Shown here: positions 21,394 to 53,487 of the stretch, piece by piece
Numbering within the stretch: position 1 is the stretch's first letter
How the letters are laid out: each line of letters starts with the position of its first letter
NCBI RefSeq assembly: GCF_000307105.1
Contig: NC_018645.1
Location: 779,001-843,000 of the forward strand
Origin: Desulfobacula toluolica Tol2
Lineage (GTDB): Bacteria; Desulfobacterota; Desulfobacteria; Desulfobacterales; Desulfobacteraceae
Direction of reading: 5' to 3'
Length of the DNA: 64,000 nucleotides
Position numbers and translations under genes: made by a program
Notes under the pieces: model-generated
Database searches by the model: none
The model's input: the letters and a program-made list of their open reading frames with translations, nothing else
What the model was told of the DNA's origin: nothing

Positions 21394-21409
21394 GATCGAG
21401 CGCTCGGTC
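21394..21409. promoter_or_regulatory. GAGCGCTC palindromic operator, copy 1
   Basis: GATCGAGCGCTCGGTC, palindromic except for one pair. It lies just downstream of the -10 of the leftward dehydrogenase promoter, so a bound repressor would cover the transcription start. Near-identical sites occur at 24496, 44259 and 53472. Confidence 0.75.
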
Positions 21410-21419
21410 TATATTTAAA

Positions 21420-21449
21420 ATACTATATTTAAAGCAATTATTTTGTCAA
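21420..21449 (-). promoter_or_regulatory. Promoter of the acyl-CoA dehydrogenase operon
   Basis: On the minus strand, TTGACA (complement of 21444-21449) and TAGTAT (complement of 21420-21425) with an 18-bp spacer. The GAGCGCTC operator follows within about 10 bp. Confidence 0.65.
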
Positions 21450-21649
21450 ATGTTTTTTTGAATACTTTTTTAGGCAGGGAAAAAAATTGAAATTAAAAGC
21501 ATCATCTTGACTTTTCTTAAGGGCCATTGGATGGATAGTGTTCACAAGGAGATTGTCAATCATACCTGGTGGAGATCAAGTTTTTAAATCATGCGAAATT
21601 GAAATTTTGTTTGAGGAGATAAATCTGCGATGCGATTTTTCTGAATTAC

Positions 21650-21682
21650 CCCTTTGGATTCGATAACCACTCATCCAAAGGG
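21650..21682. terminator. Hairpin downstream of aacS
   Basis: Perfect 10-bp stem CCCTTTGGAT/ATCCAAAGGG with a 13-nt loop, 17 bp beyond the aacS stop. The T tract lies on the plus-strand side, so for the leftward aacS transcript it lacks the usual U run; it may protect the 3' end rather than terminate. Confidence 0.45.
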
Positions 21683-21698
21683 ATAACTTTTTAAGAAA

Positions 21699-23648
<1,950 letters not shown>

Positions 23649-24414: not shown

Positions 24415-24495
24415 CCTGATGTATGCCCCTTATATATAATGAACCAGATGTATAATTCCTTGACAAGGATGGGAATAAATGTAAAAAAAATCTAT

Positions 24496-24511
24496 GACTG
24501 AGCGCTCGTTC
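24496..24511. promoter_or_regulatory. GAGCGCTC palindromic operator, copy 2 (tetR-icmF operon)
   Basis: GACTGAGCGCTCGTTC, the reverse complement of GAACGAGCGCTCAGTC. It lies 44 bp before the tetR start and about 40 bp downstream of TATAAT at 24451-24456, so it fits autoregulation by the TetR protein. Confidence 0.75.
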
Positions 24512-24554: not shown

Positions 24555-25205
24555 TTGGGAAGATTTAAAAAATCCAAGACGCCTTTATCCGGCGGCGACG
24601 TTCCGACACAAATAAAGAATCCTGAACTGGTGAGTAAGCGACGGCGTCAGATTATTGATTCTACGGTTAAATTGTTTATTGAACACGGATATCATAAGAC
24701 TACAACCAGGATGATTGCAAAAGCTGCTAATTTTTCCATTGGTTCTTTATACGAATACGTCAGTTCCAAAGAAGATCTTTTGTATCTGGTATGTAATGCC
24801 ATTCACGAAGAAGTCCGGGATGCGGTTGAAAAAGCCCTGTCAAATAAGGATAAGGGAAAAGAAAGGCTTGCCGAGGCCATTCGTCAATATTTTTATGTCT
24901 GCGATAAGATGGGAGACCATATTCTTCTCATGTATCAGGTTACCCAGTTTCTGCCGGAAAAATGGAAAAAAAGGGTTCTTGTCAACGAGTTGGATATTAC
25001 GGATGTTTTTATCAATGCGCTTTCTTCGCTTTCCGGAAAAGATATCTTTCCAACGCTTGATGCTAAAATATTGAATCTTGTGGGTCACAATATATCGGTT
25101 CTGGGTCAGATGTGGGCGTTTAGGCGATGGCATATGCAACGCAATTTTACTATTGAAGAATATATTGATATTCAGACCGATTTCATCTTTGGCTTGATAT
25201 TTTAA
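24555..25205 (+). CDS. TetR-family transcriptional regulator of acyl-CoA metabolism
   Basis: A 216-residue TetR repressor: N-terminal helix-turn-helix at about 30-80 (RRQIIDSTVKLFIEHGYHKTTTRMIAKAANFSIGSLYEYVSSKEDLL), then an all-helical effector domain (IRQYFYVCDKMGDHILLMYQ and following). Such regulators in acyl-CoA catabolic operons typically bind an acyl-CoA. The start codon is an unusual TTG at 24555 with AAGGA about nine bases upstream; no in-frame ATG exists before the DNA-binding domain. It is the first gene of tetR-icmF-thiolase-hbd (25 bp to icmF). Its most likely DNA target is the GAGCGCTC palindrome, which stands in front of its own gene and of three other catabolic transcripts in this window. 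Effector and binding are inferred. Confidence 0.88.
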   Translation: MGRFKKSKTPLSGGDVPTQIKNPELVSKRRRQIIDSTVKLFIEHGYHKTTTRMIAKAANFSIGSLYEYVSSKEDLLYLVCNAIHEEVRDAVEKALSNKDKGKERLAEAIRQYFYVCDKMGDHILLMYQVTQFLPEKWKKRVLVNELDITDVFINALSSLSGKDIFPTLDAKILNLVGHNISVLGQMWAFRRWHMQRNFTIEEYIDIQTDFIFGLIF

Positions 25206-25230: not shown

Positions 25231-28200
25231 ATGAATATGCAAATTAAAAGGTATATCCCTGAATATTCAGTTAAAGTGGTGACAGCCACCTCTCTTTTTG
25301 ACGGTCATGATGCATCCATAAATATCATGAGAAGAATTTTGCAGGATTGTGGTGCGGAAGTGATTCATATCGGGCATAACCGTTCTGCACAGGAAGTGGT
25401 TGCAGCAGCCATAGAAGAAGATGCCCAGGGGATTGCCGTATCCAGTTATCAGGGGGGGCATGTTGAATATTTCAAGTACATGAAGGATCTGTTAAAAGAA
25501 AGAGGCGCATCTCATATAAAAATTTTTGGAGGCGGCGGCGGTGTTATCATTCCTTCTGAAATGGATGAGCTTCATGCCTATGGTGTGACAAGGATCTATT
25601 CTCCTGAAGACGGATCAAAAATGGGGCTTCAGGGCATGATCAATGATATGATGCAATCCATGGACTTCCCTTGTGCAGGTTATGATAAACTGGACTATGA
25701 GAATCTGAACGTCGAGAACAAATATGTGACGGCAACTTTTATCTCTGCGGTCCAGGAAGCCTGGAAAAACGACCGGGATGCTCTTGAAAAAATCATGTCA
25801 CCTATTTTTAAATCGGCTGCTAAAAAAGATGTTCCCGTCATTGGATTAACCGGAACAGGCGGTGCAGGCAAGTCGTCTTTGACCGATGAATTAATTATCC
25901 GGATGCTGCATGATCTTAATGATGTTAATATCGCCGTCATTTCCTGTGATCCGTCCCGGCGAAAAACAGGCGGCGCTCTGCTGGGTGACAGGATCAGGAT
26001 GAATTCCATTGAAACAGGGCGCGTTTATATGCGGTCTCTGGCCACACGACTTTCTCAAACAGAGCTTCCCGAAGCTTTGCCGGATGCGATCCGTGTGGTC
26101 AAGGCAGCAGGGTATGACATTATTATCATTGAAACAGCCGGTATCGGCCAGGGTGATTCCAGGATTGTCGATCTGGTGGATATCTCCATCTATGTCATGA
26201 CAGCCGAATTCGGTGCGCCTTCTCAGCTGGAAAAGATTGATATGCTGGATTATGCTGATATGGTCGTGTTGAACAAGTATGAGAAAAAAGGCAGTGAAGA
26301 TGCTTTACGGGATGTGCGAAAACAGGTTCAGAGAAATCGTAAGGCCTGGGATACGGACCCAAAAGATCTGCCGGTATACGGAACCATTGCATCCAAATTT
26401 AACGATGACGGAGTTACTGCTTTTTATCTCGGGCTGCTGGATATTATTTTTGAAAAGAAAAAGATTAAATTTAAATCCAGTCTCCCAAGACCGGATAAAA
26501 AAGAATCCTCTTCAAAAACCATTATTATTCCGGGTTCAAGAACGCGGTATCTGGCTGAAATTGCCGATACAATAAGGCAATACCACAAGACAACCCAAGA
26601 ACAGGCAGAAGCTGTACGAAATAGATGGCATTTGATTGAAGCCTCCAAAACTTTGAAAGACAAGGGGCTTGATCAATTGCCGGATCTCCTGGAAAAACTG
26701 AAGGCTGCGGTTGCAGATGCCCAGGCTCTCGTGGAAAAAGAAACCAATGAGATTATTGATGAATTCAATACCTTAAAAAGCGTATATGCAAAAGATGAGC
26801 TGGTGTATCATGTCCGTGGTGAAGCGGTAAGCTTGCCTTTGTACAGCAAATCCCTGTCCCATTCCAAAATTCCAAAAATTTCCCTGCCGCAATTTACTGA
26901 TCCGGGGGAACAATATGCCTGGATGAGAAAAGAGAATTTTGCAGGCAATTTTCCATACACAGCCGGGGTATTTCCCTTAAAACGGTCGGATGAAGATCCC
27001 ACCCGCATGTTTGCCGGAGAAGGCGGTCCTGCTGATACCAACAAGCGGTTCAAGCTTCTGTCGGCCAGTTATCCGGCCAAACGGCTTTCAACGGCCTTTG
27101 ATTCGGTTACTCTTTACGGATTTGACCCGGATACGCGGCCGGATATATACGGTAAGATCGGGACCTCGGGGGTGAGCATCTGCACCCTGGATGATGTAAA
27201 GGTGTTGTACAGCGGGTTTGATCTGTGCGCGCCCAATACATCGGTTTCCATGACCATTAACGGCCCGGCCCCCATGATGCTGGCCATGTTTATGAATACG
27301 GCCATTGCTCGTCAGGTGGAGATGTTTAAAGAAAAAAACGGCCGCAAACCATCTGAAGATGAGGCCGCAACCCTTTGGCAGTTTGCCTTGTCAAATGTCA
27401 GGGGAACTGTTCAGGCGGATATTTTAAAAGAAGACCAGGGGCAGAATACCTGCATTTTTTCCATTGATTTTGCCTTGAAAATGATGGGGGATATTCAGCA
27501 GTATTTTATTGATCATCAGGTGAAAAATTTTTATTCGGTTTCCATCTCAGGCTATCATATTGCAGAGGCCGGTGCCAATCCCATTACCCAGCTTGCTCTG
27601 ACCCTGGCAAACGGGTTTACCTATGTGGAGTATTATTTGTCCCGTGGCATGGATATCAACAGCTTTGCGCATTCTCTTTCGTTTTTCTTTTCCAATGGCA
27701 TGGACCCTGAGTATACCGTGATCGGAAGGGTGGCCAGGCGGATCTGGGCCGTGGCCATGAAATATAAATATAAGGCAAATGAAAAATCCAGAAAGCTGAA
27801 ATATCATATCCAGACATCCGGCAGATCCCTTCACAGCCAGGATATTCAGTTCAATGACATCAGGACCACGCTTCAGGGGCTGTGCGCGGTTTATGATAAT
27901 TGCAACAGTCTTCATACCAATGCATTTGACGAAGCAATTACCACACCTTCTGCGGAATCTGTGAGGCGCGCCCTTGCCATTCAGTTGATTGTCAACCGGG
28001 AGTGGGGACTGGCAAAAAATGAAAACCCGTTGCAGGGAAGCTTTATTGTGGATGAACTCACAGATCTTGTGGAAGAAGCTGTTCTGATTGAATTTGAAAG
28101 AATAACTGAACGAGGAGGTGTGCTGGGTGCCATGGAAACCGGATACCAGAGGGGCAAAATCCAGGAAGAATCAATGTATTATGAATATCTGAAGCATTCA

Positions 28201-28506
28201 GGAGGGTATCCTATTGTTGGGGTTAATACATTTGAAGATCCTGATGCGGATTATGCACAAATGGCAAATCATCTGGAGCTTTCAAGGGCCACGGATGATC
28301 AGAAAAATGCCCAGCTTCAAAGGCTGGCTGCATTTAAAGAGCGATATAAGGATCAATCGGAACAAGCGATTCAAGACCTTAAACAGACGGTTTTAAAGGG
28401 TGAAAATATTTTTGCAAGGCTTATGGAGACGGTTAAGGTCTGCAGTTTGGGAACCATCACTCAGGCATTGTATGAGGTCGGCGGAAAATACAGACGAAAT
28501 ATGTAA
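25231..28506 (+). CDS. icmF: Fused isobutyryl-CoA mutase IcmF
   Basis: Adenosylcobalamin-dependent mutase that interconverts isobutyryl-CoA and n-butyryl-CoA, with its G-protein chaperone built in. The 1091 residues hold, in order: B12-binding domain (about 10-145) with DGHDAS, H26 being the cobalt-ligand histidine, and FGGGGGVI; MeaB-like GTPase domain (about 195-420) with Walker A GTGGAGKS (208-215) and SCDPSRRKTGGALLGDR; then linker and mutase barrel (about 520-1091) with FPLKRSDEDPTRMFAGEG, FDSVTLYGFDP and SISGYHIAEAGANP. At the position where methylmalonyl-CoA mutases have the carboxylate-binding arginine, this protein has Q738 (ILKEDQGQNTCIF), which fits the isobutyryl-CoA enzyme. Start: AAGGAGA before ATG. 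Operon with tetR, thiolase and hbd. Confidence 0.94.
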   Translation: MNMQIKRYIPEYSVKVVTATSLFDGHDASINIMRRILQDCGAEVIHIGHNRSAQEVVAAAIEEDAQGIAVSSYQGGHVEYFKYMKDLLKERGASHIKIFGGGGGVIIPSEMDELHAYGVTRIYSPEDGSKMGLQGMINDMMQSMDFPCAGYDKLDYENLNVENKYVTATFISAVQEAWKNDRDALEKIMSPIFKSAAKKDVPVIGLTGTGGAGKSSLTDELIIRMLHDLNDVNIAVISCDPSRRKTGGALLGDRIRMNSIETGRVYMRSLATRLSQTELPEALPDAIRVVKAAGYDIIIIETAGIGQGDSRIVDLVDISIYVMTAEFGAPSQLEKIDMLDYADMVVLNKYEKKGSEDALRDVRKQVQRNRKAWDTDPKDLPVYGTIASKFNDDGVTAFYLGLLDIIFEKKKIKFKSSLPRPDKKESSSKTIIIPGSRTRYLAEIADTIRQYHKTTQEQAEAVRNRWHLIEASKTLKDKGLDQLPDLLEKLKAAVADAQALVEKETNEIIDEFNTLKSVYAKDELVYHVRGEAVSLPLYSKSLSHSKIPKISLPQFTDPGEQYAWMRKENFAGNFPYTAGVFPLKRSDEDPTRMFAGEGGPADTNKRFKLLSASYPAKRLSTAFDSVTLYGFDPDTRPDIYGKIGTSGVSICTLDDVKVLYSGFDLCAPNTSVSMTINGPAPMMLAMFMNTAIARQVEMFKEKNGRKPSEDEAATLWQFALSNVRGTVQADILKEDQGQNTCIFSIDFALKMMGDIQQYFIDHQVKNFYSVSISGYHIAEAGANPITQLALTLANGFTYVEYYLSRGMDINSFAHSLSFFFSNGMDPEYTVIGRVARRIWAVAMKYKYKANEKSRKLKYHIQTSGRSLHSQDIQFNDIRTTLQGLCAVYDNCNSLHTNAFDEAITTPSAESVRRALAIQLIVNREWGLAKNENPLQGSFIVDELTDLVEEAVLIEFERITERGGVLGAMETGYQRGKIQEESMYYEYLKHSGGYPIVGVNTFEDPDADYAQMANHLELSRATDDQKNAQLQRLAAFKERYKDQSEQAIQDLKQTVLKGENIFARLMETVKVCSLGTITQALYEVGGKYRRNM

Positions 28507-28534
28507 AAAATAACAGATTAGGAGAGTGTTTAAT

Positions 28535-29710
28535 ATGAATAAAGCAGTTATTGTCAGTGCCACACGGACCCCTTTGGGAAATTTTGGCGGCACATTGGCT
28601 ACTATTGGTGCCACTGATCTGGGTGCCCATGTGATAAACGAAGCCATTGCAAGGGCCGGCATTGATAAACAAGAGATCAATGAGTGCATCATGGGCATGG
28701 TTCTGCCCTGCGGATATGGCCAGAATCCTGGAAAGATTGCTGCGGTTAAAGCAGGGCTGCCCTGGGAAGTTGAATCCATTACGGTAAATAAGGTGTGCGG
28801 GTCATCATTAAAAGCAGTGATGCTTGCAGCCCAGGCCATCCAGTGCGGTGATGCCGAGGTGGTGGTTGCAGGCGGCATGGAAAACATGAGCCGTGCCCCT
28901 TATTATATGGATAAGGCCCGCTGGGGACATCGCATGGGGCCCGGTCGTATCGAAGATCATATGGTCCATGATGGGCTTTGGGATGTGATCAATGATTTTC
29001 ACATGGGTATGTCCAATGAACTTTGTTCTGAAAAATGGGGGGTATCCAGGCAGGAGCAGGATGAATATGCGGCACAATCGTATAAAAAAGCCAATGCCGC
29101 CATTGCACAAGGGCGGTTTAAAGACGAAATCGTACCAGTGCAGATTCCCCAGAGAAAAGGTAATCCCATTATGTTTGATACGGATGAATGCCCAAAAGAG
29201 ACTGGATTGGAATTGCTCTCAAAAATGAAACCGGCATTTAAAAAAGACGGGGTGGGAACTGCCGGGAATGCATCAATCATAAGTGACGGGGCTTGTGCCC
29301 TGGTTGTCATGAGTGAAAAAAAAGCCAGAAAACTGGGCTGCAATATCATGGCAACCATTGGTTCCCAGGCCTCCTATGGCATTGATATGAAGTATGTTTT
29401 GATGGCTCCCATTTATGCCATACCCAAGGTGCTGAAAAAAGAGGGAATTTCTATTTCAGATATAGATCTGTTTGAAATCAATGAAGCATTTTCCGGCAGC
29501 TCTGCAGGCATCAACAATGAGCTGGGCCTTGATCCTGAACAGGTAAACGTGAACGGCGGCAGCGTTGCTCTTGGGCACCCCATTGGTGCTTCCGGGGCCA
29601 GGGTATTGACTACCTTGTTATATGAAATGGAAAAAAGGGATGTTAATCGCGGTCTTGCCTCTCTTTGCCTTGGAGGTGGAGAAGCTGTTGCGCTTGTTGT
29701 CAACAGGTGA
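28535..29710 (+). CDS. Acetyl-CoA acetyltransferase (thiolase)
   Basis: Biosynthetic-type/short-chain thiolase, here most likely acting in the degradative direction, splitting acetoacetyl-CoA into two acetyl-CoA. 391 residues. Catalytic residues are all visible: nucleophile C88 in VCGSSLKAV, H348 in GHPIGASGAR and C378 in LCLGGGEA. An upstream GTG at 28526 is in frame, but GGAGAG at 28521-28526 fixes the ATG at 28535. It follows icmF by 28 bp and precedes hbd by 85 bp in the same operon. Confidence 0.93.
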   Translation: MNKAVIVSATRTPLGNFGGTLATIGATDLGAHVINEAIARAGIDKQEINECIMGMVLPCGYGQNPGKIAAVKAGLPWEVESITVNKVCGSSLKAVMLAAQAIQCGDAEVVVAGGMENMSRAPYYMDKARWGHRMGPGRIEDHMVHDGLWDVINDFHMGMSNELCSEKWGVSRQEQDEYAAQSYKKANAAIAQGRFKDEIVPVQIPQRKGNPIMFDTDECPKETGLELLSKMKPAFKKDGVGTAGNASIISDGACALVVMSEKKARKLGCNIMATIGSQASYGIDMKYVLMAPIYAIPKVLKKEGISISDIDLFEINEAFSGSSAGINNELGLDPEQVNVNGGSVALGHPIGASGARVLTTLLYEMEKRDVNRGLASLCLGGGEAVALVVNR

Positions 29711-29795: not shown

Positions 29796-30647
29796 ATGGA
29801 AGTAAAGAGATTTGGTGTTATCGGATCAGGACAGATGGGTAATGGTATTGCACAGGTTGTAGCGGCCAGCGGACTTGAAGTTGTGATGAGTGATATTAAA
29901 GAAGAATTTTGTGCAAACGGTATTGCCACTATTACAAAAAATCTTGACAGAATGGTGAAAAAAGAAAAAATATCCGAGGATGATAAAGCTGCAATCCTTG
30001 GCAGAATAACTACCACCACTGATTTGAAAGATATGGCATCTGTTGATTTTGTTGTTGAAGCAGCTGTGGAAAGAGAAGATCTGAAATTTAAAATTTTTGA
30101 AGATCTGGATGAAATCTGTCCGCCACAAGTCATTTTGGCCACCAATACATCTTCCATCCCCATCGGTCGTATTGCCTCCAGAACATCCCGGCCGGACAAG
30201 GTTATCGGCATGCATTTCATGAACCCGGTTCCTGTCATGAAACTGGTTGAGGTTATCAGAGGGCTTGCAACATCAGATGAAACTTTTGATGTCACATGGA
30301 AGCTTTGCCAGGACTTTGGAAAAACCCCTGCTGAAGCCAATGATTATCCTGGATTTATTGCCAACAGGATATTGATCCCCATGATCAATGAGGCAGTTTT
30401 CTGTCTGTATCAGAGTGTTGGAAAACCCGAAGACATTGATACGGTTATGCGGCTGGGTGCCAACCATCCCATGGGCCCACTTGCCCTGGCAGACCTTATA
30501 GGCCTGGATACCTGCCTTGCCATCATGGAGACATTGTATGATGGATTAAAAGATTCCAAATACAGACCCTGCCCGCTCTTGAGAAAATATGTTGAAGCCG
30601 GCTGGCTTGGAAGAAAGACCGGAAAAGGGTTTTATGATTACAAATAA
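29796..30647 (+). CDS. hbd: 3-hydroxybutyryl-CoA dehydrogenase
   Basis: NAD(P)-dependent oxidation of (S)-3-hydroxybutyryl-CoA to acetoacetyl-CoA, cytoplasmic. 283 residues, typical length. GSGQMGNG (10-17) is the nucleotide-binding loop; the catalytic histidine is H140 in [31 protein letters not shown] and [19 protein letters not shown] are family hallmarks; the end [11 protein letters not shown] is the usual C-terminal one. A strong AAGGAGG precedes the ATG. Last gene of the tetR-icmF-thiolase-hbd operon, closed by a strong terminator. With the hydratase at 19348 and the dehydrogenase at 20162 it completes butyryl-CoA oxidation. Confidence 0.95.
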
Positions 30648-34706: not shown

Positions 34707-35609
34707 TCATCCGCCATATTTATCATCAAAAGAGTTCCAGAATTTTCTGTCCTTTTCCCGCCAGCCTTTACCAAAGGATTGATCAAAAAAGGGTTTTAAC
34801 TTTTTAAACCAGGCACCATACCCCTGGTTTCCCTGTATCCGGGTTTTGATGACATCGGCAACATGGTCGCCAAGATTGGCCAGTTCATCTTTGGGAATAT
34901 AGGAGTCCGCACCTTTTTGAATGGATTCTTTTAAATTTTCAGGGGTCAGGGCATGGGCGGTCAGCATGAGCGCAGGAATATCTTTTTTGCGGGCAAGTTC
35001 AAGAATATCATAACCGCTTACACCCATGATATCCAGGATGGCAACATCATATCGATTATGTTCAATCAGTTTTCTGGCCTCATCAAAAGTGGCTGCCTGA
35101 TCAAGAAAACACATGTCCAGCAACTCTTCAACCGTTTCCAGGATATCAGGTTCATCATCAAGTACCAGAAGCCTCCGGTCCCTTAAGAGTTCTTGGGTTG
35201 TCATATTGTCCAGGTTGAATTTGACCGTGGTGACAGGGCAGGGGGCTTTGAGGATGACATGGCGTGATGTGGAACCCAGAAAGGCTTTCTGTGTTCTGGA
35301 AGTTTTCTTTATTCCCAGAAAAATATGATCAATATCATTTTCCTGTGCAAACTTGACCAGATCTTCACCCGGTGAAAGTCCTCTTACGCTTTGTTGAGCA
35401 TCGTATTTTACTTTTGAATGCTCCATCAGTTTTTTGGCAAACTCAAGATTTTCTTCTGCTTTTAAAATATCCGACTGTTTTTCAGAAGTTCCACCCTGCA
35501 TTGAGGTGATGATATAAACAAAAGCATTGTTTTTCAGGGCATAATCCCTTGCAAGGGATAAAGCGAGTCTGCCGACTTCTCCACCATTATATCCAACAAG
35601 TATTTTCAT
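34707..35609 (-). CDS. Universal stress protein-receiver domain fusion
   Basis: A 300-residue two-domain protein. Residues 1-130 are a USP domain (MKILVGYNGGEVGRLAL, DHIFLGI, FLGSTSRHVILKAPCPVTTVK); residues about 145-260 are a receiver domain with the DDE pocket, phosphoacceptor D193 in AILDIMGVSGYD, and LTAHALTPENLKESI, but YIPKDEL in place of the usual KP step. The last 40 residues (KKLKPFFDQSFGKGWREKDRKFWNSFD) form an extension that is shared with the REC protein at 47596 and matches no output domain I know. It is the last gene of the ligase/ABC-transporter operon, 22 bp after livF, so phosphorylation state and transport may be linked. AGGAGA precedes the ATG. Confidence 0.85.
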   Translation of the reverse strand: MKILVGYNGGEVGRLALSLARDYALKNNAFVYIITSMQGGTSEKQSDILKAEENLEFAKKLMEHSKVKYDAQQSVRGLSPGEDLVKFAQENDIDHIFLGIKKTSRTQKAFLGSTSRHVILKAPCPVTTVKFNLDNMTTQELLRDRRLLVLDDEPDILETVEELLDMCFLDQAATFDEARKLIEHNRYDVAILDIMGVSGYDILELARKKDIPALMLTAHALTPENLKESIQKGADSYIPKDELANLGDHVADVIKTRIQGNQGYGAWFKKLKPFFDQSFGKGWREKDRKFWNSFDDKYGG

Positions 35610-35631
35610 ATAAATCTCCTGAAATTATACT

Positions 35632-36438
35632 TTACATCCAGCGTTTACGTCTTTTATAAGACTTTACATCCTTAAAGGATTTTCTTTTGCCGCCTTTGGT
35701 GATTCCCATATAAAACTCTTTTACATCAGGATTGTCCTGCAGCTCTTTTGACGGACCTTCCAGAACAATTTTACCGGACTCCATGATATACGCATAATCT
35801 GATATGGCCAGCGCCACTTTTGCATTCTGCTCAACCACCAGGATTGTGGTATCAAGTTCTTTATTGATTTTTTGAATATTATCAAATATTTCTTTGACCA
35901 GCAAAGGTGCCAGGCCAAGAGACGGTTCATCCAGCATCAGCATTTCAGGGGCTGCCATCAATGCCCTGGCAATGGCAATCATCTGCTGCTCCCCGCCTGA
36001 GCTGTATCCGGCCATCCGGTTGGTTACATTTGAGAGCCTGGGAAAATGTTTGTACATCAGCTCATTGTCTTCACGGATTTTAGCTGATCCGTCCTTGCGG
36101 GTAATGGACCCCACAATGATGTTTTCATTAACGGTCAGGTGTTTGAACACACGTCTGCCTTCAGGCACCATAACAGCGCCCATTTTAACAATATCCGTTC
36201 CCATAAGATGGGTGGTATCAGTCCCGTTGAATTTGATATATCCTTCCTTGATGGCACCGTTTTCAGGCTTTAAAAGACCGGAGATCGCCCTTAAAGTGGT
36301 TGTTTTGCCCGCACCATTGGTACCCAGCAAGGATACGATACCGCCTTTGGGAATATTCAGGCTCACACCGCGCAATACCTGGATGATATCATTATAGACA
36401 ACCTCAATATTATTTACTTCAAGCAGGTTTTTTCCCAT
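35632..36438 (-). CDS. livF: Branched-chain amino acid-type ABC transporter ATPase, LivF
   Basis: ATP-binding subunit energising a LIV/HAAT-family importer. 268 residues with Walker A GTNGAGKT (39-46), signature YSSGGEQQM, Walker B MLMLDEPSLGL and the H-loop-equivalent region ILVVEQNA, all typical of LivF. The C-terminus has an extra basic tail (SFKDVKSYKRRKRW) that is common in LivF subunits of transporters linked with acyl-CoA ligases. It follows the binding-protein gene across a 130-bp gap that contains a strong hairpin. The ribosome binding site is weak, consistent with lower expression than the binding protein. Confidence 0.92.
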   Translation of the reverse strand: MGKNLLEVNNIEVVYNDIIQVLRGVSLNIPKGGIVSLLGTNGAGKTTTLRAISGLLKPENGAIKEGYIKFNGTDTTHLMGTDIVKMGAVMVPEGRRVFKHLTVNENIIVGSITRKDGSAKIREDNELMYKHFPRLSNVTNRMAGYSSGGEQQMIAIARALMAAPEMLMLDEPSLGLAPLLVKEIFDNIQKINKELDTTILVVEQNAKVALAISDYAYIMESGKIVLEGPSKELQDNPDVKEFYMGITKGGKRKSFKDVKSYKRRKRWM

Positions 36439-36466
36439 ATTCGTTTTCTTTTTTTTCAGGTTAATC

Positions 36467-36508
36467 TTACCGGAAATCCGGGTTAAGCTACAGCTGGATT
36501 TCCGGTAA
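36467..36508 (-). other. Strong intra-operon hairpin between binding-protein gene and livF
   Basis: Perfect 13-bp stem TTACCGGAAATCC/GGATTTCCGGTAA with a 16-nt loop that itself holds AGCT repeats. No U run follows on the minus strand, so it resembles a 3'-stabilising or processing hairpin as found after abundant binding-protein genes rather than a terminator. Confidence 0.75.
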
Positions 36509-36568
36509 ATTAAGGTTCAGCTTAGGTCACAAATTTGATTTGATGGCTAAAGAATCATTTGCCTTTGC

Positions 36569-37798: not shown

Positions 37799-37875
37799 GT
37801 TTTTTGTTCCTCCTTGGTTTGGGTTTAAGGCATTTGAAAAATTATAAAGCAAGACCATCATTATCAAAAAAAATA

Positions 37876-38970: not shown

Positions 38971-38973
38971 AGG

Positions 38974-39870
38974 CTACACTCGCTCAATTTCATGAATTCC
39001 AAATAAACCGTGGGGTTTAAATAGAAGAATGATTAATAAAATAATATATGGCATGACATCCCCGGTGCCGTTCAATCCGAAATTACCATCCAGGTAACCG
39101 CTTGCAAACTGCTGGATCAATCCCATAATGATTCCTGCCACAACCGCGCCTAAAATTGAATCAAGGCCTCCCAGGATGACCACGGGAAACACAATAATAC
39201 CAAATGCCTGGAGCGTTTCAAAGTTCAACCCGGTTATGTTGCCGATAATACAGCCTGCCGCTGCAGCTGACAGCCCTGCGGTTGCCCAGGCAAGTCCGAA
39301 GACCTTTGGCACGGAGATACCCACGGACATGGCACCGAACTGATCGTCGGACACTGCCCGCATGGAAATGCCTACAGTTGATTTTTTGAAAAACCAGGAA
39401 AATGCCCCGATCAGAAGACAGGTGATGATAACACCCACAAGCTGTGTCCATGAAATGGAAACACCTCCAAAGGTCAGAGGGGTCTGGGGTAAAAATTGTG
39501 GAAAGGAAAAATTTTCCGTGCCAAAAGGGGTGATAAAGATCAAACCGTCAATGATAGAGGCCAGCCCAATTGTCACCATGATAACCGAAATGATGGGTTC
39601 TCCGATCAGGCGACGTAAAAAAATTCTTTCAACGCTCATGGCCAGAAAAAATGTGATTATCATGCCGACCAGAAAAGAAAAGAAGATCGGTATTCCTAAT
39701 CCTACCGTAAGGTAATAGGTGATAAATGCACCTGCTGCAATAATCTGCCCATGGGCAAAGTTTGCCACACGGCTGGATTTATAGACCAGCACCAGTCCCA
39801 ATGCGGCTAAAGCATAAATAGAGCCGACCACAATGCCGCTGACTAAAATTTGAAAAAAATAACTCATCAA
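38974..39870 (-). CDS. livH: LIV-type ABC transporter permease LivH
   Basis: Second inner-membrane permease. 298 residues, eight or so hydrophobic helices, with family segments GSIYALAALGLVLVYKSSRVANFAHGQI, and the ATPase-contact loop MRAVSDDQFGAMSVGISV. The ATG overlaps the stop of the upstream acyl-CoA ligase gene (ATGA at 39867-39870), which ties transport and activation together at the level of translation. Confidence 0.93.
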   Translation of the reverse strand: MMSYFFQILVSGIVVGSIYALAALGLVLVYKSSRVANFAHGQIIAAGAFITYYLTVGLGIPIFFSFLVGMIITFFLAMSVERIFLRRLIGEPIISVIMVTIGLASIIDGLIFITPFGTENFSFPQFLPQTPLTFGGVSISWTQLVGVIITCLLIGAFSWFFKKSTVGISMRAVSDDQFGAMSVGISVPKVFGLAWATAGLSAAAAGCIIGNITGLNFETLQAFGIIVFPVVILGGLDSILGAVVAGIIMGLIQQFASGYLDGNFGLNGTGDVMPYIILLIILLFKPHGLFGIHEIERV

Positions 39871-41792
39871 AATCCTTTCACCGTGTAAAACAAAATGCTT
39901 GTTTTAACCTTGGCTGACTGCCCGTCCTGATACTGGAAGGAAGCCTCAACCTCTTTTTTGTCAATAGATTCGTCATAAAGCGCATCATACAGGTTCTGGT
40001 ATCGTTCCTGAACAAATTGACGGCGGATTTTACCGGTTTTGGTCAACTCCCCGTCATCCACATCCAAAAGCTTGTAAAGCAGGGCAAACCGCTTGATTTT
40101 AAAATGTTCTTTTTCAGCTCTACAGTTGACATCCTTTACCTGTTCCATAATAAGTTCAGCCACTTCAGGTCTGCCGGAAAGATCCATATATGTGGTAAAG
40201 GAAATGCCTTTGTCTTCAGCCCATTTGCCCACAACAACGGGATCAATGTTGATCAGGCACGCCACAAAGTCCTCGTTGTTGCCGTAAATCACCGCCTCTT
40301 TGATATATGGACTGAATTTGAGGGCGTTTTCCAGAAACATGGGAGAGAACATTTCTCCTTTATTGTTGTGCATCACGTCTGACAGGCGGTCGATAACCAC
40401 CAGGTGGCCGTGTTCATCAATAAATCCGGCATCTCCCGAGTGAAGCCAACCGCCCTCCAGCAGTTCTTCGGATTTTTTCGGCAGATCATAATAGCCTGGG
40501 GAAACAGAAGCGGATCTGGACAGGATTTCCCCGTTGTCCGCGATTTTGCATTCGGTTCCGGGCAATGGCTTGCCAACGGTTTCGGGCCTAACATCACCGT
40601 CCCTGTGCATATAGGCAATCCCGGTTATTTCGGTTTGTCCGTAAATTTGTTTCAAATTTACCCCGATGGCCTGGTAAAAGGTGAAAAGTTCCGGCCCTAA
40701 TGCAGCACCGCCAGTATAGGCGCGTTTTAGCCGCAACAGCCCGATCTGGTTGATCAGGGGGCGAAAGACCATCTGTTTGCCCAGCCATGATTTGAGTTTT
40801 AATCCCAACGGCATGGGTTTGCCGGTCATCCTGTAGTGTGCGGCTTTTAAACCTGCAGATATAAAATAATTATAGAATAATTTGTTCAACCAATAGGACT
40901 GGTCGATTTTCAGCCAGATTTCAGACCGGATGGTTTCATAAATCCTTGGGGCACCGAACATGAAATGGGGTCCGATTTCCTTTAAATCCGACATGGCTGT
41001 TTCAACGGATTCGGGAAAGTTAATGGTGATTCCCGTGGCCATGGCAACCCCGAATGAGTTCATCTGTTCACCGATCCAGGCAAAAGGCAGAAACGAGACA
41101 TATTCATCCGTAGGCTCCAGAGGATCGACATCGGTTATTTTTACTCCCATGTTGATATAATTTCTATGGGTCATGATGGTGCCTTTGGGAAGCCCCGTGG
41201 TTCCAGAGGTCAGGCACAGGTGACAGGCATCGTCCGGCTTGCCTTGATCCACAAGGATTTCAAAAATATCAGGATCTTTTGCATGAATTTTTTCACCCAG
41301 TTTGTAAATATCTTTGATATCAACAAACCAGTCATCAGACATATATTCTCTCATACCTCTTGGGTCTTCAAAAATGACTTTTTTAACATTGGGGATCTGA
41401 TCTCTGATATCCAGAACCTTGTCCACCTGTTCCTGGTTGTCGCAAAATACCACGGTAACTTTCAGGTATTGAATGATCTGGGCAATTTCACGGGGCATGC
41501 TGGTTTGATAGATACCGGCTGAAACAGCACCAATGGCGTGCGCTCCAATGGCTGTAAACAAAAGTTCTGGAATATTATCACTGATGATGGCAATGGTTTC
41601 TCCTTTGCCCAGCCCGATGTTTTTGAGACCAAGAGCGGTTTTGCGGACATAGTCATAGTAATCTTCCCAGGTATAGGTGTTCCAGATTCCAAAATCTTTT
41701 TCCCTTAGCGCCGGGCGTTTGGGCGTGCTGTTAACCCGCCAGCGAAGCAATTGGGGAATGGAGTATTCAAGTAGGTGATCATTCTTGCTCAT
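39867..41792 (-). CDS. Long-chain-type AMP-forming acyl-CoA synthetase (FadD15-like)
   Basis: Cytoplasmic or membrane-associated ligase activating a carboxylic acid to its CoA thioester. From ATG 41792 it has 641 residues, the size of FadD15/eukaryotic-type long-chain ligases. Visible: N-terminal RWRVNSTPKRPALREKD, P-loop CLTSGTTGLPKGTIMTH, YGQTEITG, HSGDAGFIDEHGHLVVIDR and a long C-terminal lobe ending LTKTGKIRRQFV with the catalytic-lysine region. GAGAGG lies before ATG 41792, only four bases after livG ends; an earlier ATG at 41822 would overlap livG. It sits between livG and livH, so imported acids are probably activated at the membrane. Confidence 0.9.
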   Translation of the reverse strand: MSKNDHLLEYSIPQLLRWRVNSTPKRPALREKDFGIWNTYTWEDYYDYVRKTALGLKNIGLGKGETIAIISDNIPELLFTAIGAHAIGAVSAGIYQTSMPREIAQIIQYLKVTVVFCDNQEQVDKVLDIRDQIPNVKKVIFEDPRGMREYMSDDWFVDIKDIYKLGEKIHAKDPDIFEILVDQGKPDDACHLCLTSGTTGLPKGTIMTHRNYINMGVKITDVDPLEPTDEYVSFLPFAWIGEQMNSFGVAMATGITINFPESVETAMSDLKEIGPHFMFGAPRIYETIRSEIWLKIDQSYWLNKLFYNYFISAGLKAAHYRMTGKPMPLGLKLKSWLGKQMVFRPLINQIGLLRLKRAYTGGAALGPELFTFYQAIGVNLKQIYGQTEITGIAYMHRDGDVRPETVGKPLPGTECKIADNGEILSRSASVSPGYYDLPKKSEELLEGGWLHSGDAGFIDEHGHLVVIDRLSDVMHNNKGEMFSPMFLENALKFSPYIKEAVIYGNNEDFVACLINIDPVVVGKWAEDKGISFTTYMDLSGRPEVAELIMEQVKDVNCRAEKEHFKIKRFALLYKLLDVDDGELTKTGKIRRQFVQERYQNLYDALYDESIDKKEVEASFQYQDGQSAKVKTSILFYTVKGF

Positions 41793-41796
41793 AGAT

Positions 41797-42564
41797 TTAA
41801 TCCTCTCCAATATAAGCTTCAATTACTTTAGGATTCTGGGCAACCTCCTCAGGAGTTCCGGAACCGATCACCTCGCCGAAATCAAGAACATAAATTTGGT
41901 CTGAAATGTCCATGACAACCCCAAGGTCATGCTCTACCAGCACCACAGTAATCTCTTTTTCTTTTTGAATATCCATCACAAATCTGACGATATCCTCTTT
42001 TTCCTCCTGGTTCATTCCAGCCATGGGTTCATCCAAAAGAAGGATATCCGGTGCAAGGGTTAAGGCACGGGCCACCTCGACTTTTTTTTGCACCCCATAG
42101 CTTAAGTTCCCCACAAGGCTTTTTCTGTAAGGCTCCAGCTCCATAAAATCTATAATGGTTTCAACATGTGCCCTGTTTTCAGCTTCAATCCGGGAGGCCT
42201 TTCCGTAGAAAAATATCGCGTGCAGAAAGCTGTATTTTAAATTCTGGTGACGGGCCAGAAGAAGATTGTCAAGAACCGAAAGGCCGGAAAAAAGCTCAAG
42301 ATTTTGAAATGCCCTTGCAATCCCCATATTTGATACCTGGTGGGGGGAAGAGTTGGTCAGTTTTTTATCCTTGTAAAAAATATCGCCGCGGGTGGGGTGG
42401 TAAAAACCTGATATGCAGTTGAGCATACTGGTTTTGCCTGCGCCATTAGGGCCGATAATAGATGTGATCAGACCCGGCTCAATGATCATGTCTACATTGG
42501 ATAGGGCTTTAAGGCCGCCAAAAGAGAGTGTTACGTCAGAAACAGTTAAATGTGCCATATACAA
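41797..42564 (-). CDS. livG: LIV-type ABC transporter ATPase LivG
   Basis: ATP-binding subunit paired with LivF. 255 residues with Walker A GPNGAGKT, the long LivG-specific insertion (FQNLELFSGLSVLDNLLLARHQNLK), signature LSYGVQKKVEVARAL, Walker B LLLDEPMAGM and VLVEHDLGVVMDISDQI. Two start codons are near each other (42564 and 42558). It follows the AMP-ligase gene at 42619 by 54 bp. Confidence 0.93.
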   Translation of the reverse strand: MYMAHLTVSDVTLSFGGLKALSNVDMIIEPGLITSIIGPNGAGKTSMLNCISGFYHPTRGDIFYKDKKLTNSSPHQVSNMGIARAFQNLELFSGLSVLDNLLLARHQNLKYSFLHAIFFYGKASRIEAENRAHVETIIDFMELEPYRKSLVGNLSYGVQKKVEVARALTLAPDILLLDEPMAGMNQEEKEDIVRFVMDIQKEKEITVVLVEHDLGVVMDISDQIYVLDFGEVIGSGTPEEVAQNPKVIEAYIGED

Positions 42565-42618: not shown

Positions 42619-44124
42619 TCAGGCATATTTTATTTTAATTTTCTCACGGTCGATTTTGCCGTCACCTGCCTTTGGCAGATCGGTTATAAATTGAACATAT
42701 CCTGGTTTTTTGTAACCGGCAATGCGTGATCCGCAAAATCGTATCAGCTCATCTTCTGTCAGTTTGCAGCCTGGATTCAGCGAGCAGACAGCTTTGATGC
42801 CTTCCCCGAATTTTGGGTCAGGAACCCCGAACACACAGACTTCTTTGATTGCGTCATGCTCAAGAATTGCTTGTTCCACTTCAGCGGGAAAAACATTTTC
42901 TCCACCCGGCTTGATAAGTTCTTTTTCAGCTTTTCTGCCTTTAAAAAACAAAAATCCCTCTGAATCAATCATTCCAAGGTCTCCGGTATGGTGCCACCCG
43001 CCCCTGAAGGTGTGGGCATTGAGTTTGTCGGCATTCCAGTACCCTTGAAACACCAGGGGCCCTTTGACAAGGATTTCCCCGGTTTCACCGGGAGGCAGAA
43101 GCGTATCAGATTCATCTGCTGTTTTAATATTGGCAAGAGGTGAGATTCTGCCGGCTGACCCAGGTTTTGCAAAGTATTCGGCAAATGTGATCAGGCCTGA
43201 TGTTTCGGTTTGTCCGTACATGGTCCAGAATTTGGAATCCGTAACTTCTTCCCATTTTTTTGCCGTATCCTGCATTTCAAGCCCGGCCGCGATTTCAAGG
43301 CTTGACAGATCAAACTTGCCGTCTTTCATGGCATCCATCAGATTTGTCAGTATTGGGGGAAAGGAACCAAAAATATTAACTTTTTGTTCCTGGATCAGTT
43401 CCAGAGTTTTGAGAGGGTCAAATTTTTCCTGTATAACATTTTTGCCACCGGCTTGAAGTGTTCCCAACCCTATATTTATTCCCATAATATGAAATAACGG
43501 CAAAACGTTTAAATAGGTTTTGGTTTCATCAAGGCTGTATGCGTTGATGATCTGCTGGTTGGCCAGAATAAGATTTTCCTGTCCCAGAGCAGCTCCCCTG
43601 GGTTTGCCCTGAACGGCCGCTGTATGAATTATTACAAAAGGATCTGTCGGGCGGCATGGAACCGGGTTTTTGATTGGCGTGTCATGATATAATTTTGAAA
43701 AACCGGAATCTTTTTTATCGTCAACAACATAACAGTGTTCAAGACAGGAAAATGATGTCGTAAGTTTCCCGGCCTGATCAGCCATTTCTTTGTCGCAGAC
43801 AATCAAGCAGGGCGTTGTATCTTCAATAATAAAGCTGATTTCGTCCTGGCTCAGCCGCCTGTTGATGAGAACAAGCGTGATGTTGAGTGCGGATGCCGCA
43901 CCAAACAGATGAAAAAAAACAGGATGGTTTTTGCACAGAACAGCTACCCTGCTGCCAAAAGCCAGATTCAGATTTTTGAGGCCGTTTGCAAGTTTGCCGG
44001 CTTGCAAGAAAAGATCCGAATAGGTGATATCCGATCCTTCCCAGTGAATGGCACAAGATGAACCTTTGTAAAGTGCGTTTCTTTCGTAGATGTCGAAATA
44101 GGTCAGATTGTGAAGACTGTTCAT
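42619..44124 (-). CDS. AMP-forming acyl-CoA ligase with variant P-loop
   Basis: A 501-residue ANL-superfamily ligase, the first gene of the leftward transporter operon. The fold is complete: YSDLFLQAGKLANGLKNL, LPLFHIMGINIG, MYGQTETSGLI, WHHTGDLGMIDSEGFLFFKGR, and the C-terminal catalytic-lysine region KAGDGKIDREKIKI. The nucleotide P-loop, normally SGTTGxPKG, reads HTAAVQGKPRG. Related ligases with an AAV-x-GxPRG loop exist, so this may be a natural subgroup rather than a dead enzyme. The product acid is unknown; context suggests a short or branched acid. GGAGTG precedes the ATG. A near-consensus promoter and a GAGCGCTC operator lie 135-190 bp upstream. Confidence 0.88.
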   Translation of the reverse strand: MNSLHNLTYFDIYERNALYKGSSCAIHWEGSDITYSDLFLQAGKLANGLKNLNLAFGSRVAVLCKNHPVFFHLFGAASALNITLVLINRRLSQDEISFIIEDTTPCLIVCDKEMADQAGKLTTSFSCLEHCYVVDDKKDSGFSKLYHDTPIKNPVPCRPTDPFVIIHTAAVQGKPRGAALGQENLILANQQIINAYSLDETKTYLNVLPLFHIMGINIGLGTLQAGGKNVIQEKFDPLKTLELIQEQKVNIFGSFPPILTNLMDAMKDGKFDLSSLEIAAGLEMQDTAKKWEEVTDSKFWTMYGQTETSGLITFAEYFAKPGSAGRISPLANIKTADESDTLLPPGETGEILVKGPLVFQGYWNADKLNAHTFRGGWHHTGDLGMIDSEGFLFFKGRKAEKELIKPGGENVFPAEVEQAILEHDAIKEVCVFGVPDPKFGEGIKAVCSLNPGCKLTEDELIRFCGSRIAGYKKPGYVQFITDLPKAGDGKIDREKIKIKYA

Positions 44125-44258: not shown

Positions 44259-44274
44259 AAACGAGCGCTCAGTC
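44259..44274. promoter_or_regulatory. GAGCGCTC palindromic operator, copy 3 (ligase/ABC operon)
   Basis: AAACGAGCGCTCAGTC; it differs from the copy at 24496 (read on its other strand) only in the first base. It lies about 15 bp downstream of the -10 of the leftward promoter, over the expected transcription start. Confidence 0.78.
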
Positions 44275-44289: not shown

Positions 44290-44318
44290 TAATAATTTAA
44301 TTTGTTCTGGTTTGTCAA
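44290..44318 (-). promoter_or_regulatory. Promoter of the ligase/ABC-transporter operon
   Basis: On the minus strand, TTGACA (complement of 44313-44318), 17-bp spacer, TTATTA (complement of 44290-44295). The palindromic operator follows. Confidence 0.65.
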
Positions 44319-47593: not shown

Positions 47594-47595
47594 GC

Positions 47596-50434: not shown

Positions 50435-50550
50435 GGCAGATAAATCCGATAAATTTAGATACGGTTTGATAATTCTCCATAAAAAAGCCTATACCACACC
50501 TGTTCATTAAATGCCATTTATAAAGGAGACTTTGACAGTCTTTATCGTAT

Positions 50551-51603: not shown

Positions 51604-51627
51604 GATATCTCCAGGTATTTCTTTGTT

Positions 51628-52176
51628 TTATTTGAGTTTTTCATACGCAGACAGCAAAAACAATGTCGCAAAGGGCTGAAGAAGCAAAAAACCGATAAAA
51701 GATGAAGCACCAATGGTTGTCAGGGCGAAGAAGACAATAAAAACAATGATATGATCTGACACAGGAGAGCTTGTTACCATGGCCGTGCTTTCTTTGACGG
51801 CATCAACAAGCCCGTATTGTTTGTCCACCATTACAGGAATCAGATAAAGGCATGTGTATCCAATTATAAGGGTAAATAAAATGCCGGGAATAATAAAGAG
51901 TGTGAATCCAACCATAGTGACAATAAAGACAATCAGCCCGAAAATGAATAACGGTAAAAACAGCCCGAGTTGTGAAAAAACGTCCTGGGCTTTGGGCTCC
52001 CGATTGTATTTTAACAGCTGATACAGTGAGTGGGTATACCCTGCAAAAGCAACAGGCGCAAGGATGCCGATGGAAAAAATACTGACGGCCGCTACAACAA
52101 GCGTAAGAATGATCAATGATAAAATATTATTGATACAATGAGTCCAGGCAGTTTCAACATGATATTTCACATCCAT
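51628..52176 (-). CDS. Small multi-pass membrane protein of unknown function
   Basis: A 182-residue hydrophobic protein with about five membrane helices (near 18-43, 70-92, 90-112, 140-156 and 155-172). Its pattern, an N-terminal amphipathic part AWTHCINNILSLI and helices rich in Ile, Phe and Gly with a central VDKQYGLVDAVKESTAMV segment, resembles DUF-type/YIP-like membrane proteins of many bacteria, for which no function is established. Probably cotranscribed with the downstream radical SAM gene (24-bp gap); it is divergent from ilvE. Confidence 0.65.
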   Translation of the reverse strand: MDVKYHVETAWTHCINNILSLIILTLVVAAVSIFSIGILAPVAFAGYTHSLYQLLKYNREPKAQDVFSQLGLFLPLFIFGLIVFIVTMVGFTLFIIPGILFTLIIGYTCLYLIPVMVDKQYGLVDAVKESTAMVTSSPVSDHIIVFIVFFALTTIGASSFIGFLLLQPFATLFLLSAYEKLK

Positions 52177-52337
52177 TTTTTTTTCCTTTGTCTTAAGCAG
52201 ATAAATAATTTAATATAGTAACCGAAAAAAAATAAGCCCGTCAATATAAACAAATAAAATTATTTTGGCAAATAATGAAATTACAGCTTATTTTTTGCAC
52301 AACACCATTAATATTAATTAAATTTACGGAGGAAAGA

Positions 52338-53402
52338 ATGGAAATTAAAGTCACCCTTGCCCAGACGAACAGAACACGGCCTCAGGATTCTGCGTTAGGG
52401 TTTGGCAATGTGTTTACTGATCATATGTTTGTCATGGATTATTCTAAAGATAACGGGTGGCATGATGCTCGAATAGAACCTTATGCTGATTTTAGTGTTC
52501 CACCTTCTGCAATGGTGTTTCATTATGGTCAGGCCATTTTTGAGGGATTAAAAGCCTATAAAACCCCGGATAAAAAGATCTGCCTTTTCAGGGCAAAGGA
52601 TAATTTTGAAAGAATGAACCGGTCTGCAAAAGGCCTGTGTATCCCGCAGATTGATGTTGATTTTGTCATGGATGCCATGAAAAAATTGATCAAACTGGAA
52701 GAAAAATGGATTCCTGAAACCCTTGGAACCTCACTTTATATACGACCCACAATCATAGCAACCGATCCGTTCCTCGGGGTGCGCGCGTCTTACACTTATA
52801 AGTTTTTCATTATTCTGTCTTCTGTTGGGGCATACTATGCCGACGGTCTGAATCCTGTGAAAATCTGGGTGGAAAAGGAGCATGTCAGGGCTATCAGAGG
52901 GGGGATGGGGGAATTTAAGACTGCTGCTAATTATGCTGCCAGTCTGTTTGCATCTGAAGAGGCAAAAAAGAATGGATATGACCAGGTACTCTGGCTGGAT
53001 GGCATCGAAAGAAAGTATATCGAAGAGGTTGGTGCCATGAATATTTTCCTGCTTATCGGGGATGAACTGGTGACGCCCATTCTGAATGGGAGTATCCTGC
53101 CTGGAATCACACGGTATTCTGTTATCAGTCTGGCAAAAAAATGGGGCATGAACATATCTGAAAGGAAAATCAGCGTTGAAGAAGTATTTAAGGCTCATGA
53201 AGACGGTAAACTGACAGAAATTTTCGGTTCCGGAACAGCTGCAGTGATTTCTCCTGTGGGTGAAATACGTTATGGAGACAAGGTTATTTCCATTGGGGAT
53301 GGTACACCTGGTGAAACTGCAATGAAGTTCTATAATGCATTAACCGACATCCAGTACGGAAAAGCCGAAGATACTGAAAACTGGCTTGAAGTCATTGGTT
53401 AA
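52338..53402 (+). CDS. ilvE: Branched-chain amino acid aminotransferase
   Basis: PLP-dependent (fold type IV) transaminase interconverting leucine, isoleucine and valine with their 2-oxo acids. 354 residues from ATG 52338, fixed by GGAGG about seven bases upstream; the frame open to 52275 is not supported. Visible: FHYGQAIFEGLKAYKTPD, RMNRSAKGLCIP, PLP-lysine K194 in GEFKTAANYAASL, IEEVGAMNIF, and FGSGTAAVISPVGEI at the cofactor phosphate site. It could act in synthesis or breakdown; its place beside an acyl-CoA dehydrogenase with the GAGCGCTC operator points to breakdown. Confidence 0.92.
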   Translation: MEIKVTLAQTNRTRPQDSALGFGNVFTDHMFVMDYSKDNGWHDARIEPYADFSVPPSAMVFHYGQAIFEGLKAYKTPDKKICLFRAKDNFERMNRSAKGLCIPQIDVDFVMDAMKKLIKLEEKWIPETLGTSLYIRPTIIATDPFLGVRASYTYKFFIILSSVGAYYADGLNPVKIWVEKEHVRAIRGGMGEFKTAANYAASLFASEEAKKNGYDQVLWLDGIERKYIEEVGAMNIFLLIGDELVTPILNGSILPGITRYSVISLAKKWGMNISERKISVEEVFKAHEDGKLTEIFGSGTAAVISPVGEIRYGDKVISIGDGTPGETAMKFYNALTDIQYGKAEDTENWLEVIG

Positions 53403-53471
53403 CTCTTATTTTATATGGAACCCAAGTTTTAATATGGAAATCAGGATCGATTTTTTTTAGCGACATATGCT

Positions 53472-53487
53472 GAACGAGCGCTCAATC
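53472..53487. promoter_or_regulatory. GAGCGCTC palindromic operator, copy 4
   Basis: GAACGAGCGCTCAATC, one base away from the consensus GAACGAGCGCTCAGTC. It is 42 bp before the XRE-cupin gene, which is followed by an acyl-CoA dehydrogenase gene. Confidence 0.75.

Follow-up and report, generated by a model that had tools for sequence, protein, structure and literature searches.

A 16-bp operator conserved in Desulfobacteraceae and a probable TetR-family repressor of short-chain acyl-CoA catabolism

In Sulfolobus acidocaldarius, the TetR repressor FadR is described as acting at four genomic sites, including one for autoregulation, in a 30-kb beta-oxidation cluster, and as being released by acyl-CoA (PMC6449355). 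For complete-oxidising sulfate reducers, which carry much carbon flow in marine sediments, a recent account describes sulP clusters under TetR repressors that have a 16-bp palindrome, and names butanoate and 2-methylbutanoate as growth substrates (PMC11887813, Sci Adv 2025); the strings 'isobutyr', 'IcmF' and 'butyrate' are absent from its main text. Here we describe four 16-bp operator sites in a stretch of 64,000 nucleotides of the Desulfobacula toluolica Tol2 genome (NC_018645.1, positions 779,001 to 843,000; hereafter the window, numbered from its first letter), and a TetR-family protein, encoded at 24555..25205, as their probable binder. Through this operator, present in 72 of 86 genomes of the family Desulfobacteraceae, one likely repressor is linked to isobutyryl-CoA mutase, beta-oxidation, and the activation and uptake of acids. 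The operator also places the ligases, the transporter and an odd HMG-CoA-lyase-like (HMGL-like) enzyme in a probable pathway and opens the effector to direct testing. No description of this regulon, nor of an operator for short-chain acyl-CoA catabolism in these bacteria, was found in the literature searched, most subscription papers and supplements lying outside the search. The type of regulation is itself known; its more novel sides are the joined versus separate layout of the locus and a likely second regulatory tier of XRE regulators.

Operator sites and their conservation

The earlier note, made from the letters of the window, had placed four copies of a palindrome with a common core before four gene groups, and a window scan found them at those positions. 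Operator 1 (21394..21409, minus strand, GACCGAGCGCTCGATC read towards the gene) lies upstream of the acyl-CoA dehydrogenase/hydratase/HMGL-like operon, operator 2 (24496..24511, plus strand, GACTGAGCGCTCGTTC) lies 8 bp after the -10 element of tetR, operator 3 (44259..44274, minus strand, GACTGAGCGCTCGTTT towards the gene) lies upstream of the ligase/ABC transporter operon, and operator 4 (53472..53487, plus strand, GAACGAGCGCTCAATC) lies upstream of the XRE-acyl-CoA dehydrogenase pair. Once oriented alike, the copies at 24496 and 44259 show the single-base difference that had been reported. The 16-mer is an imperfect palindrome, with a perfect inner 8 bp and symmetry at 12 of its 16 positions. 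All four sites fall outside the gene models used, in a region (12208-62908) that is 8% noncoding, and precede the start codons by 83, 43, 134 and 26 bp, in order of position.

With up to 3 mismatches allowed, the window gave 5 strand hits, whereas 100 shuffles averaged 0.16 and never came to that count. The core GAGCGCTC occurred 4 times, always within the four sites (0.27 expected). In the whole single-contig genome of 5,197,905 bases, the pattern RANYGAGCGCTCRNTY matched the four sites only, both at 0 mismatches and at up to 1 mismatch, where the reversed-pattern control gave 1. A scan for the literal 16-mer that tolerated up to 3 mismatches also returned only these sites, yet its reversed control gave 5 strand hits, so this looser scan is significant in the place of its hits and not in their number. 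Scanning the genome for a looser palindrome, with up to 2 mismatches, gave 177 hits vs 69 in the control and was of no use. Scattering of the motif in coding DNA, an outcome that the note had held to be fatal, was not what we found: each of the 4 genome sites stands before a regulator or catabolic gene.

The motif was likewise conserved upstream of orthologues across the family and much of the order. In the 86 family genomes, D. toluolica included, RANYGAGCGCTCRNTY occurred at 204 sites in 72 genomes, with 0 to 5 sites each. These genomes are related and the counts are not independent; the contrast between site and flanks is what matters, and information content was 1.78-1.91 bits per column in the site and 0.25-0.87 in the flanks. 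We classified 175 of the 204 sites (the window's four and 171 outside it, in 173 distinct sequence contexts), assigning a site to a gene when the start codon lay within 330 bp and identity was at least 50%. By this rule 156 sites were upstream of the same four genes, named here by their first coordinate: tetR (47 sites, median site-start distance 45 bp), dehydrogenase 20162 (44 sites, 84 bp), ligase 42619 (33 sites, 85 bp) and XRE regulator 53514 (32 sites, 25 bp). Each class had its own sequence preference and spacing. The regulon is real and highly conserved, and with the site in front of the same genes in so many relatives it is very likely that the four gene groups, which serve the oxidation of small branched and straight fatty acids, share on/off control.

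The remaining classified sites were of several kinds. Six precede an open frame of 245-271 residues (L157, L158, L162, L168, L178, L180); the three frames scanned (L157, L168, L178) are DUF6125, with an MmdA-like carboxyltransferase next to it in L178. Three precede HMGL-like paralogues (L095, L181, L194; of these, L095 was scanned with Pfam), L179 and L210 are truncated copies of known targets, and L127 is a second site near tetR, past the distance limit. L145 and L205 are alike and have no sensible target, and L151, L154 and L172 have no assignment. Two further sites, in same-genus relatives, precede chemoreceptor genes (L074:1713-3926, L100:1403-3601), which start about 80 and 100 bp from the operator centre. 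One genome (G019) carries identical mirror-image dehydrogenase sites and genes on a single contig (L118:3571, L118:11053), perhaps an assembly artefact; both were counted.

The candidate repressor and rival explanations

The only TetR gene of the window (24555..25205, plus strand) carries one of the sites at its own promoter, as had been claimed, and is one of 14 TetR_N matches in the genome. Its product, the proposed binder of all four operators, is a FadR/FasR-like TetR-family regulator with a TetR_N helix-turn-helix (PF00440, 56 bits vs a cut-off of 24). It scored below the equivalog models for mycobacterial FasR (NF053731, 53.2 bits vs 330) and Bacillus FadR (NF053878, 49.4 bits vs 200), and the nearest solved structures by sequence were 1vi0 and B. 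subtilis FadR 3whb. An AlphaFold model (18 orthologues; mean predicted local distance difference test score 86.3, residues 1-13 low) showed an all-helical fold matching solved TetR proteins, the closest being FasR, PfmR, BkaR, FadR and AibR. Several of these nearest folds were solved with acyl-CoA ligands (FasR with C20-CoA, FadR with stearoyl-CoA, AibR with isovaleryl-CoA). A TQIKN segment before the helix-turn-helix was invariant in 18 aligned orthologues. In sequence and modelled fold the protein resembles the acyl-CoA-released repressors FasR, FadR and AibR, and, going by that fold and by the target genes, it may respond to an acyl-CoA in the same way. A palindromic site lies at the gene's own promoter in the window, at 46 further assigned family sites and in 10 of the 12 order loci fetched. 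A perfect CCTTAC hexamer array (4.5 copies, 24391-24417) stands just upstream of the tetR promoter.

We consider it highly probable that the 24555 protein is an autoregulated, acyl-CoA-released repressor acting at the four operators. It would bind them probably as a dimer or pair of dimers, blocking transcription of its own operon (tetR-icmF-thiolase-hbd) and of the dehydrogenase-hydratase-HMGL-like-XRE, ligase-ABC transporter and XRE-dehydrogenase operons. Release would be caused by a short-chain acyl-CoA produced by the ligase, most likely isobutyryl-CoA, butyryl-CoA or another small branched acyl-CoA. The pathway would then activate the acid, rearrange isobutyryl-CoA to butyryl-CoA, and oxidise butyryl-CoA to acetyl-CoA.

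The placement of the sites bears on whether the protein represses. All four had been put in promoter regions. Three are preceded by a recognisable -35/-10 pair; at XRE 53514 no promoter was recognisable, with 5 of the 32 sites scoring at least 9 of 12. The three candidate promoters share the -35 hexamer TTGACA: that of the acyl-CoA dehydrogenase operon (21422..21449, minus strand; -35 at 21444-21449, -10 TATAGT at 21422-21427, 16-bp spacer), that of tetR (24460..24487, plus strand; -35 at 24460-24465, -10 TAAAAA at 24482-24487, 16-bp spacer), and that of the ligase (44290..44318, minus strand; -35 at 44313-44318, -10 TTATTA at 44290-44295, 17-bp spacer). The operator lies downstream of the -10 by 12, 8 and 15 bp, respectively, which fits a block to transcription. 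In relatives, the best-scoring -35 started at -34 to -38 relative to the site for tetR (41 of 46), at -39 to -42 for the dehydrogenase (40 of 43) and at -43 to -45 for the ligase (27 of 33); the score is lenient in AT-rich DNA and has no shuffled-sequence baseline, and the evidence is the clustering of these positions. That the 24555 protein binds but activates, or acts both ways, is an unlikely alternative, though the best of those considered. In its favour, the ligase site is separated from the -10 by 15 bp, no sigma-70 promoter can be recognised at the XRE site, and FasR is an activator according to NCBIfam; against this, a protein bound downstream of the -10, as at three of the four promoters, usually blocks the polymerase.

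We regard it as rather less likely again that the operators are bound by one of the XRE-cupin proteins (53514, or 17420 as its counterpart), which would make tetR just another target. The XRE gene is the most lasting target, keeping its site in genomes of genus g8 whose tetR has none and in three family genomes that are at least 90% complete and lack a TetR orthologue (G018, G041, G083). Co-occurrence in the order disfavours it. In 56 genomes of other families, orthologues were called at E 1e-40 or better for TetR and 1e-55 or better for XRE, both limits being chosen once the lists had been inspected, where a gap separates orthologues from weaker hits. By these limits G094 and G128 (TetR at about 1e-16) were counted as TetR-less, and both lack the site. 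The site was found in 30 of 34 genomes with TetR and in 0 of 22 without it (Fisher 7e-12). XRE presence also correlated with sites, less strongly (p 2e-4). Genomes having one gene without the other separate two genes that otherwise travel together: the site was present in 0 of 7 with XRE only and in 4 of 5 with TetR only, the fifth of which (G116) is 65% complete and has a partial XRE match. Among seven TetR-bearing loci of Desulfobulbales and a spirochaete, the 8-bp core occurred in 5 and the full pattern in 2, and no XRE gene was found in these seven stretches. The Priestia megaterium operon compared below also fits a TetR/FadR-type operator. The TetR regulon proposed in the earlier note is supported by tests that do not depend on its reasoning; site presence in the order follows this TetR and not the XRE regulator.

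Slightly less probable still is that another of the 14 TetR_N proteins, or several regulators including 24555, share the operators. This would explain the family genomes that have sites and no orthologue of 24555. The Priestia copy lies in a FadR-controlled locus of Bacillus, and FadR-like proteins may thus share operators. However, no order genome without a 24555 orthologue has a site (0 of 22), and most genomes that showed both have the site at the start of tetR. As sources of the repeats, chance and a dispersed repeat element found no support and can practically be dismissed, given the window shuffles, the core count and the genome-wide scans (four sites per 5.2 Mb; no reversed-pattern hit in the 86 family genomes and 1 in the 58 of the order), with sites mostly before the same genes and flanks that are not conserved.

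Several observations weigh against repression by the 24555 protein at a conserved set of targets. Under the rule used, 19 of the 175 classified family sites had no assigned gene. Five fetched g8 genomes (L216-L220) have no site at tetR; seven other g8 genomes do (L129, L132, L137, L139, L146, L149, L202). The exact site is absent from 9 of 10 genomes of genus g2, where it had drifted to GACTGAGTGTTCGTTC at both XRE promoters read (L233, L234) and no site was found at the two tetR genes read (L213, L214). In the order, 4 of the 34 TetR-bearing genomes lack the exact site. Conversely, 14 family genomes gave no TetR match at 1e-15, and 9 of them have sites; 11 of these 14 are less than 90% complete, so that their assemblies may lack the gene. 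Three fuller ones, G018 (95% complete), G041 (100%) and G083 (90%), keep sites, and a lax search gave paralogue-like hits only (best 1.1e-12, 2.5e-7 and 7.5e-7, respectively). Their remaining targets are XRE in G041 and G083 (cut by the contig end in G083), and XRE and an HMGL-like gene in G018; these sites either count against the model or mark orphaned operators. Finally, in 7 genomes of the order we read 18 regions around other sites (L235-L252, not all scanned against NCBIfam), and 4 of them have no acyl-CoA gene at the site, which instead adjoins an OYE-type flavoenzyme (L237, below the specific cut-off), a sensor kinase (L245), a fumarate reductase/succinate dehydrogenase cytochrome b (L251) or an unknown frame (L252).

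Target genes and locus layout

Isobutyryl-CoA mutase links isobutyryl-CoA to butyryl-CoA in an isobutyrate-degrading syntroph (PMC5017805), and with this step the gene set covers activation, rearrangement and beta-oxidation. The best reading of the annotations is that the targets would form an IcmF-centred route for (iso)butyryl-CoA oxidation. Behind tetR, on the plus strand, follow the fused isobutyryl-CoA mutase/GTPase IcmF (25231..28506; NCBIfam NF045497, 1864 bits, above the cut-off of 1500), an acetyl-CoA acyltransferase (thiolase, 28526..29710; TIGR01930, 457 bits, above 241) and 3-hydroxybutyryl-CoA dehydrogenase (hbd, 29796..30647; 461 bits, above 408). Operator 1 leads a minus-strand operon encoding a short-chain-type acyl-CoA dehydrogenase (20162..21310; best match AcrC, 408 bits, below the cut-off of 640), an enoyl-CoA hydratase (19348..20172; best 334 bits, below 363), the HMGL-like protein of 374 residues (18070..19194, below the HMGL cut-off) and an HTH (XRE)-cupin regulator (17420..18052). 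An acetoacetate-CoA ligase (21699-23648, above cut-off) lies between two regulon sites and has no site of its own.

Operator 3 leads a minus-strand run whose first gene encodes an AMP-forming acyl-CoA ligase (42619..44124; within the broad family, below specific cut-offs). It continues over 34707..42564 with a branched-chain-type ABC transporter (LivG-, LivH-, LivM- and LivF-like proteins and a substrate-binding protein, below equivalog cut-offs), includes a second AMP ligase (39867-41822, below specific cut-offs), and ends with a universal stress protein (Usp) domain fused to a response-regulator receiver (34707-35609). Operator 4, on the plus strand, precedes its target, an HTH (XRE)-cupin regulator (53514..54074), and a second, AcrC-like acyl-CoA dehydrogenase (54138..55292; 494 bits, below 640).

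The HMGL-like gene raised an isovalerate/leucine route. In the dehydrogenase 20162..21310 the residues GEGT stand at the place of the usual catalytic Glu, and the HMGL-like protein has GGLGGQ where the aligned HMG-CoA lyase has GGLGGC. We disfavour the isovalerate/leucine route because the Glu position is ordinary and the cysteine is missing. The HMGL-like protein probably catalyses a reaction other than that of HMG-CoA lyase. It is conserved at 79-82% identity in loci of other order families.

The two HTH-cupin regulators (17420-18052 and 53514-54074) stand in separate operons of the regulon. Because both lie inside it, a second regulatory tier through them, in the manner of a cascade, is likely.

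The 12 tetR loci read from other families of the order encode TetR proteins 53-61% identical to 24555, and in 10 of them an exact copy of the site lies no more than about 330 bp upstream of that gene. In the other two, the site is a variant matching at 13 of 16 positions (L227), or an exact copy stands no nearer than about 1.3 kb (L231). Seven of the 12 (L221-L227) have a joined run of tetR, icmF, thiolase, hbd, XRE and the second dehydrogenase. In L223, L224 and L226 the first dehydrogenase, hydratase and HMGL-like genes are divergent beside this run, with XRE-17420 in two of them. The Desulfobacula operons, except the ligase/transporter one, thus largely correspond to parts of what is a single locus in other genomes. 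A separate thiolase-hbd-XRE-dehydrogenase piece, headed by two sites, occurs in G113 (L248). A tree of IcmF (33 rows, some of those without a nearby XRE being cut by contig or stretch ends) did not settle the polarity of split vs assembly, the joined label needing 3 changes.

In the other 14 of the 18 further order regions, an acyl-CoA ligase, mutase, carboxyltransferase, dehydrogenase or hydratase gene lies beside the site. The targets include methylmalonyl-CoA mutase (above cut-off in L246 and L249, by similarity only in L240), ligases below specific cut-offs (PrpE-like in L235, MbcS-like in L236 and L243, others in L238, L241, L244 and L250), an MmdA-like carboxyltransferase (L239, below the specific cut-off), a hydratase (L242), the first dehydrogenase (L247) and the L248 piece.

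We tentatively suggest a wider picture, which we hold to be possible though somewhat short of an even chance. The IcmF-centred locus would exist either as a joined operon (7 of 12 loci, other order families) or as separate pieces each with a copy of the operator (Desulfobacteraceae), its membership being kept through the change of layout. TetR would control the two XRE-cupin regulators as a second tier answering the supply of branched short-chain acyl-CoA, and in some relatives its control would extend to chemoreceptors, in two genomes, and to methylmalonyl-CoA mutase, in two genomes and in a third where the gene was recognised by similarity alone.

Comparison with known systems

Bacillus FadR controls a general long-chain beta-oxidation regulon. 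The operator of B. subtilis FadR, of the TGAATGA..TCATTCA type, resembles the operator described here. The FadR proteins of B. subtilis and B. halodurans (3whb, 3whc, 5gp9) are the closest solved by sequence and among the closest folds, but differ in showing 18-21% identity in fold alignments and in their stearoyl-CoA ligand. AibR (5k7f, 5k7h, 5k7z) is alike in its TetR fold and in having a small branched acyl-CoA, isovaleryl-CoA, as effector, and differs in being 17-19% identical to the 24555 protein, in its organism (Myxococcus xanthus) and in its target pathway.

An icmF-linked TetR of Priestia megaterium (NZ_CP140268.1) is 44% identical to 24555. Its genes run in the order Fe-S protein, thiolase, hbd, two acyl-CoA dehydrogenases, tetR and icmF, and GACTGAATGCTCATTC, a 13-of-16 match, stands before the first gene; a match of at least 12 of 16 turned up in 5 of 500 shuffled stretches of 330 bp. 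This system differs from that of Desulfobacula in being a single operon of a Gram-positive bacterium, with tetR inside the operon.

The LiuR, LiuQ, PsrA and FadP regulons of Proteobacteria are regulons of fatty-acid and branched-chain degradation from comparative genomics, several of them under TetR proteins, and the passages on these four regulators do not describe one of the 24555 type (PMC5343134). The TetR repressors of sulP clusters, as described in PMC11887813, are a different case from the four-operator regulon.

FadR of S. acidocaldarius (PMC6449355) closely parallels the present system in its four sites, its autoregulation and its beta-oxidation targets, to which the 24555 protein would add a similar release by acyl-CoA. 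It differs in being archaeal, in having fatty acyl-CoA effectors and in having its sites in one cluster. Unlike that single cluster, the same four targets described here keep their sites when they lie apart in relatives.

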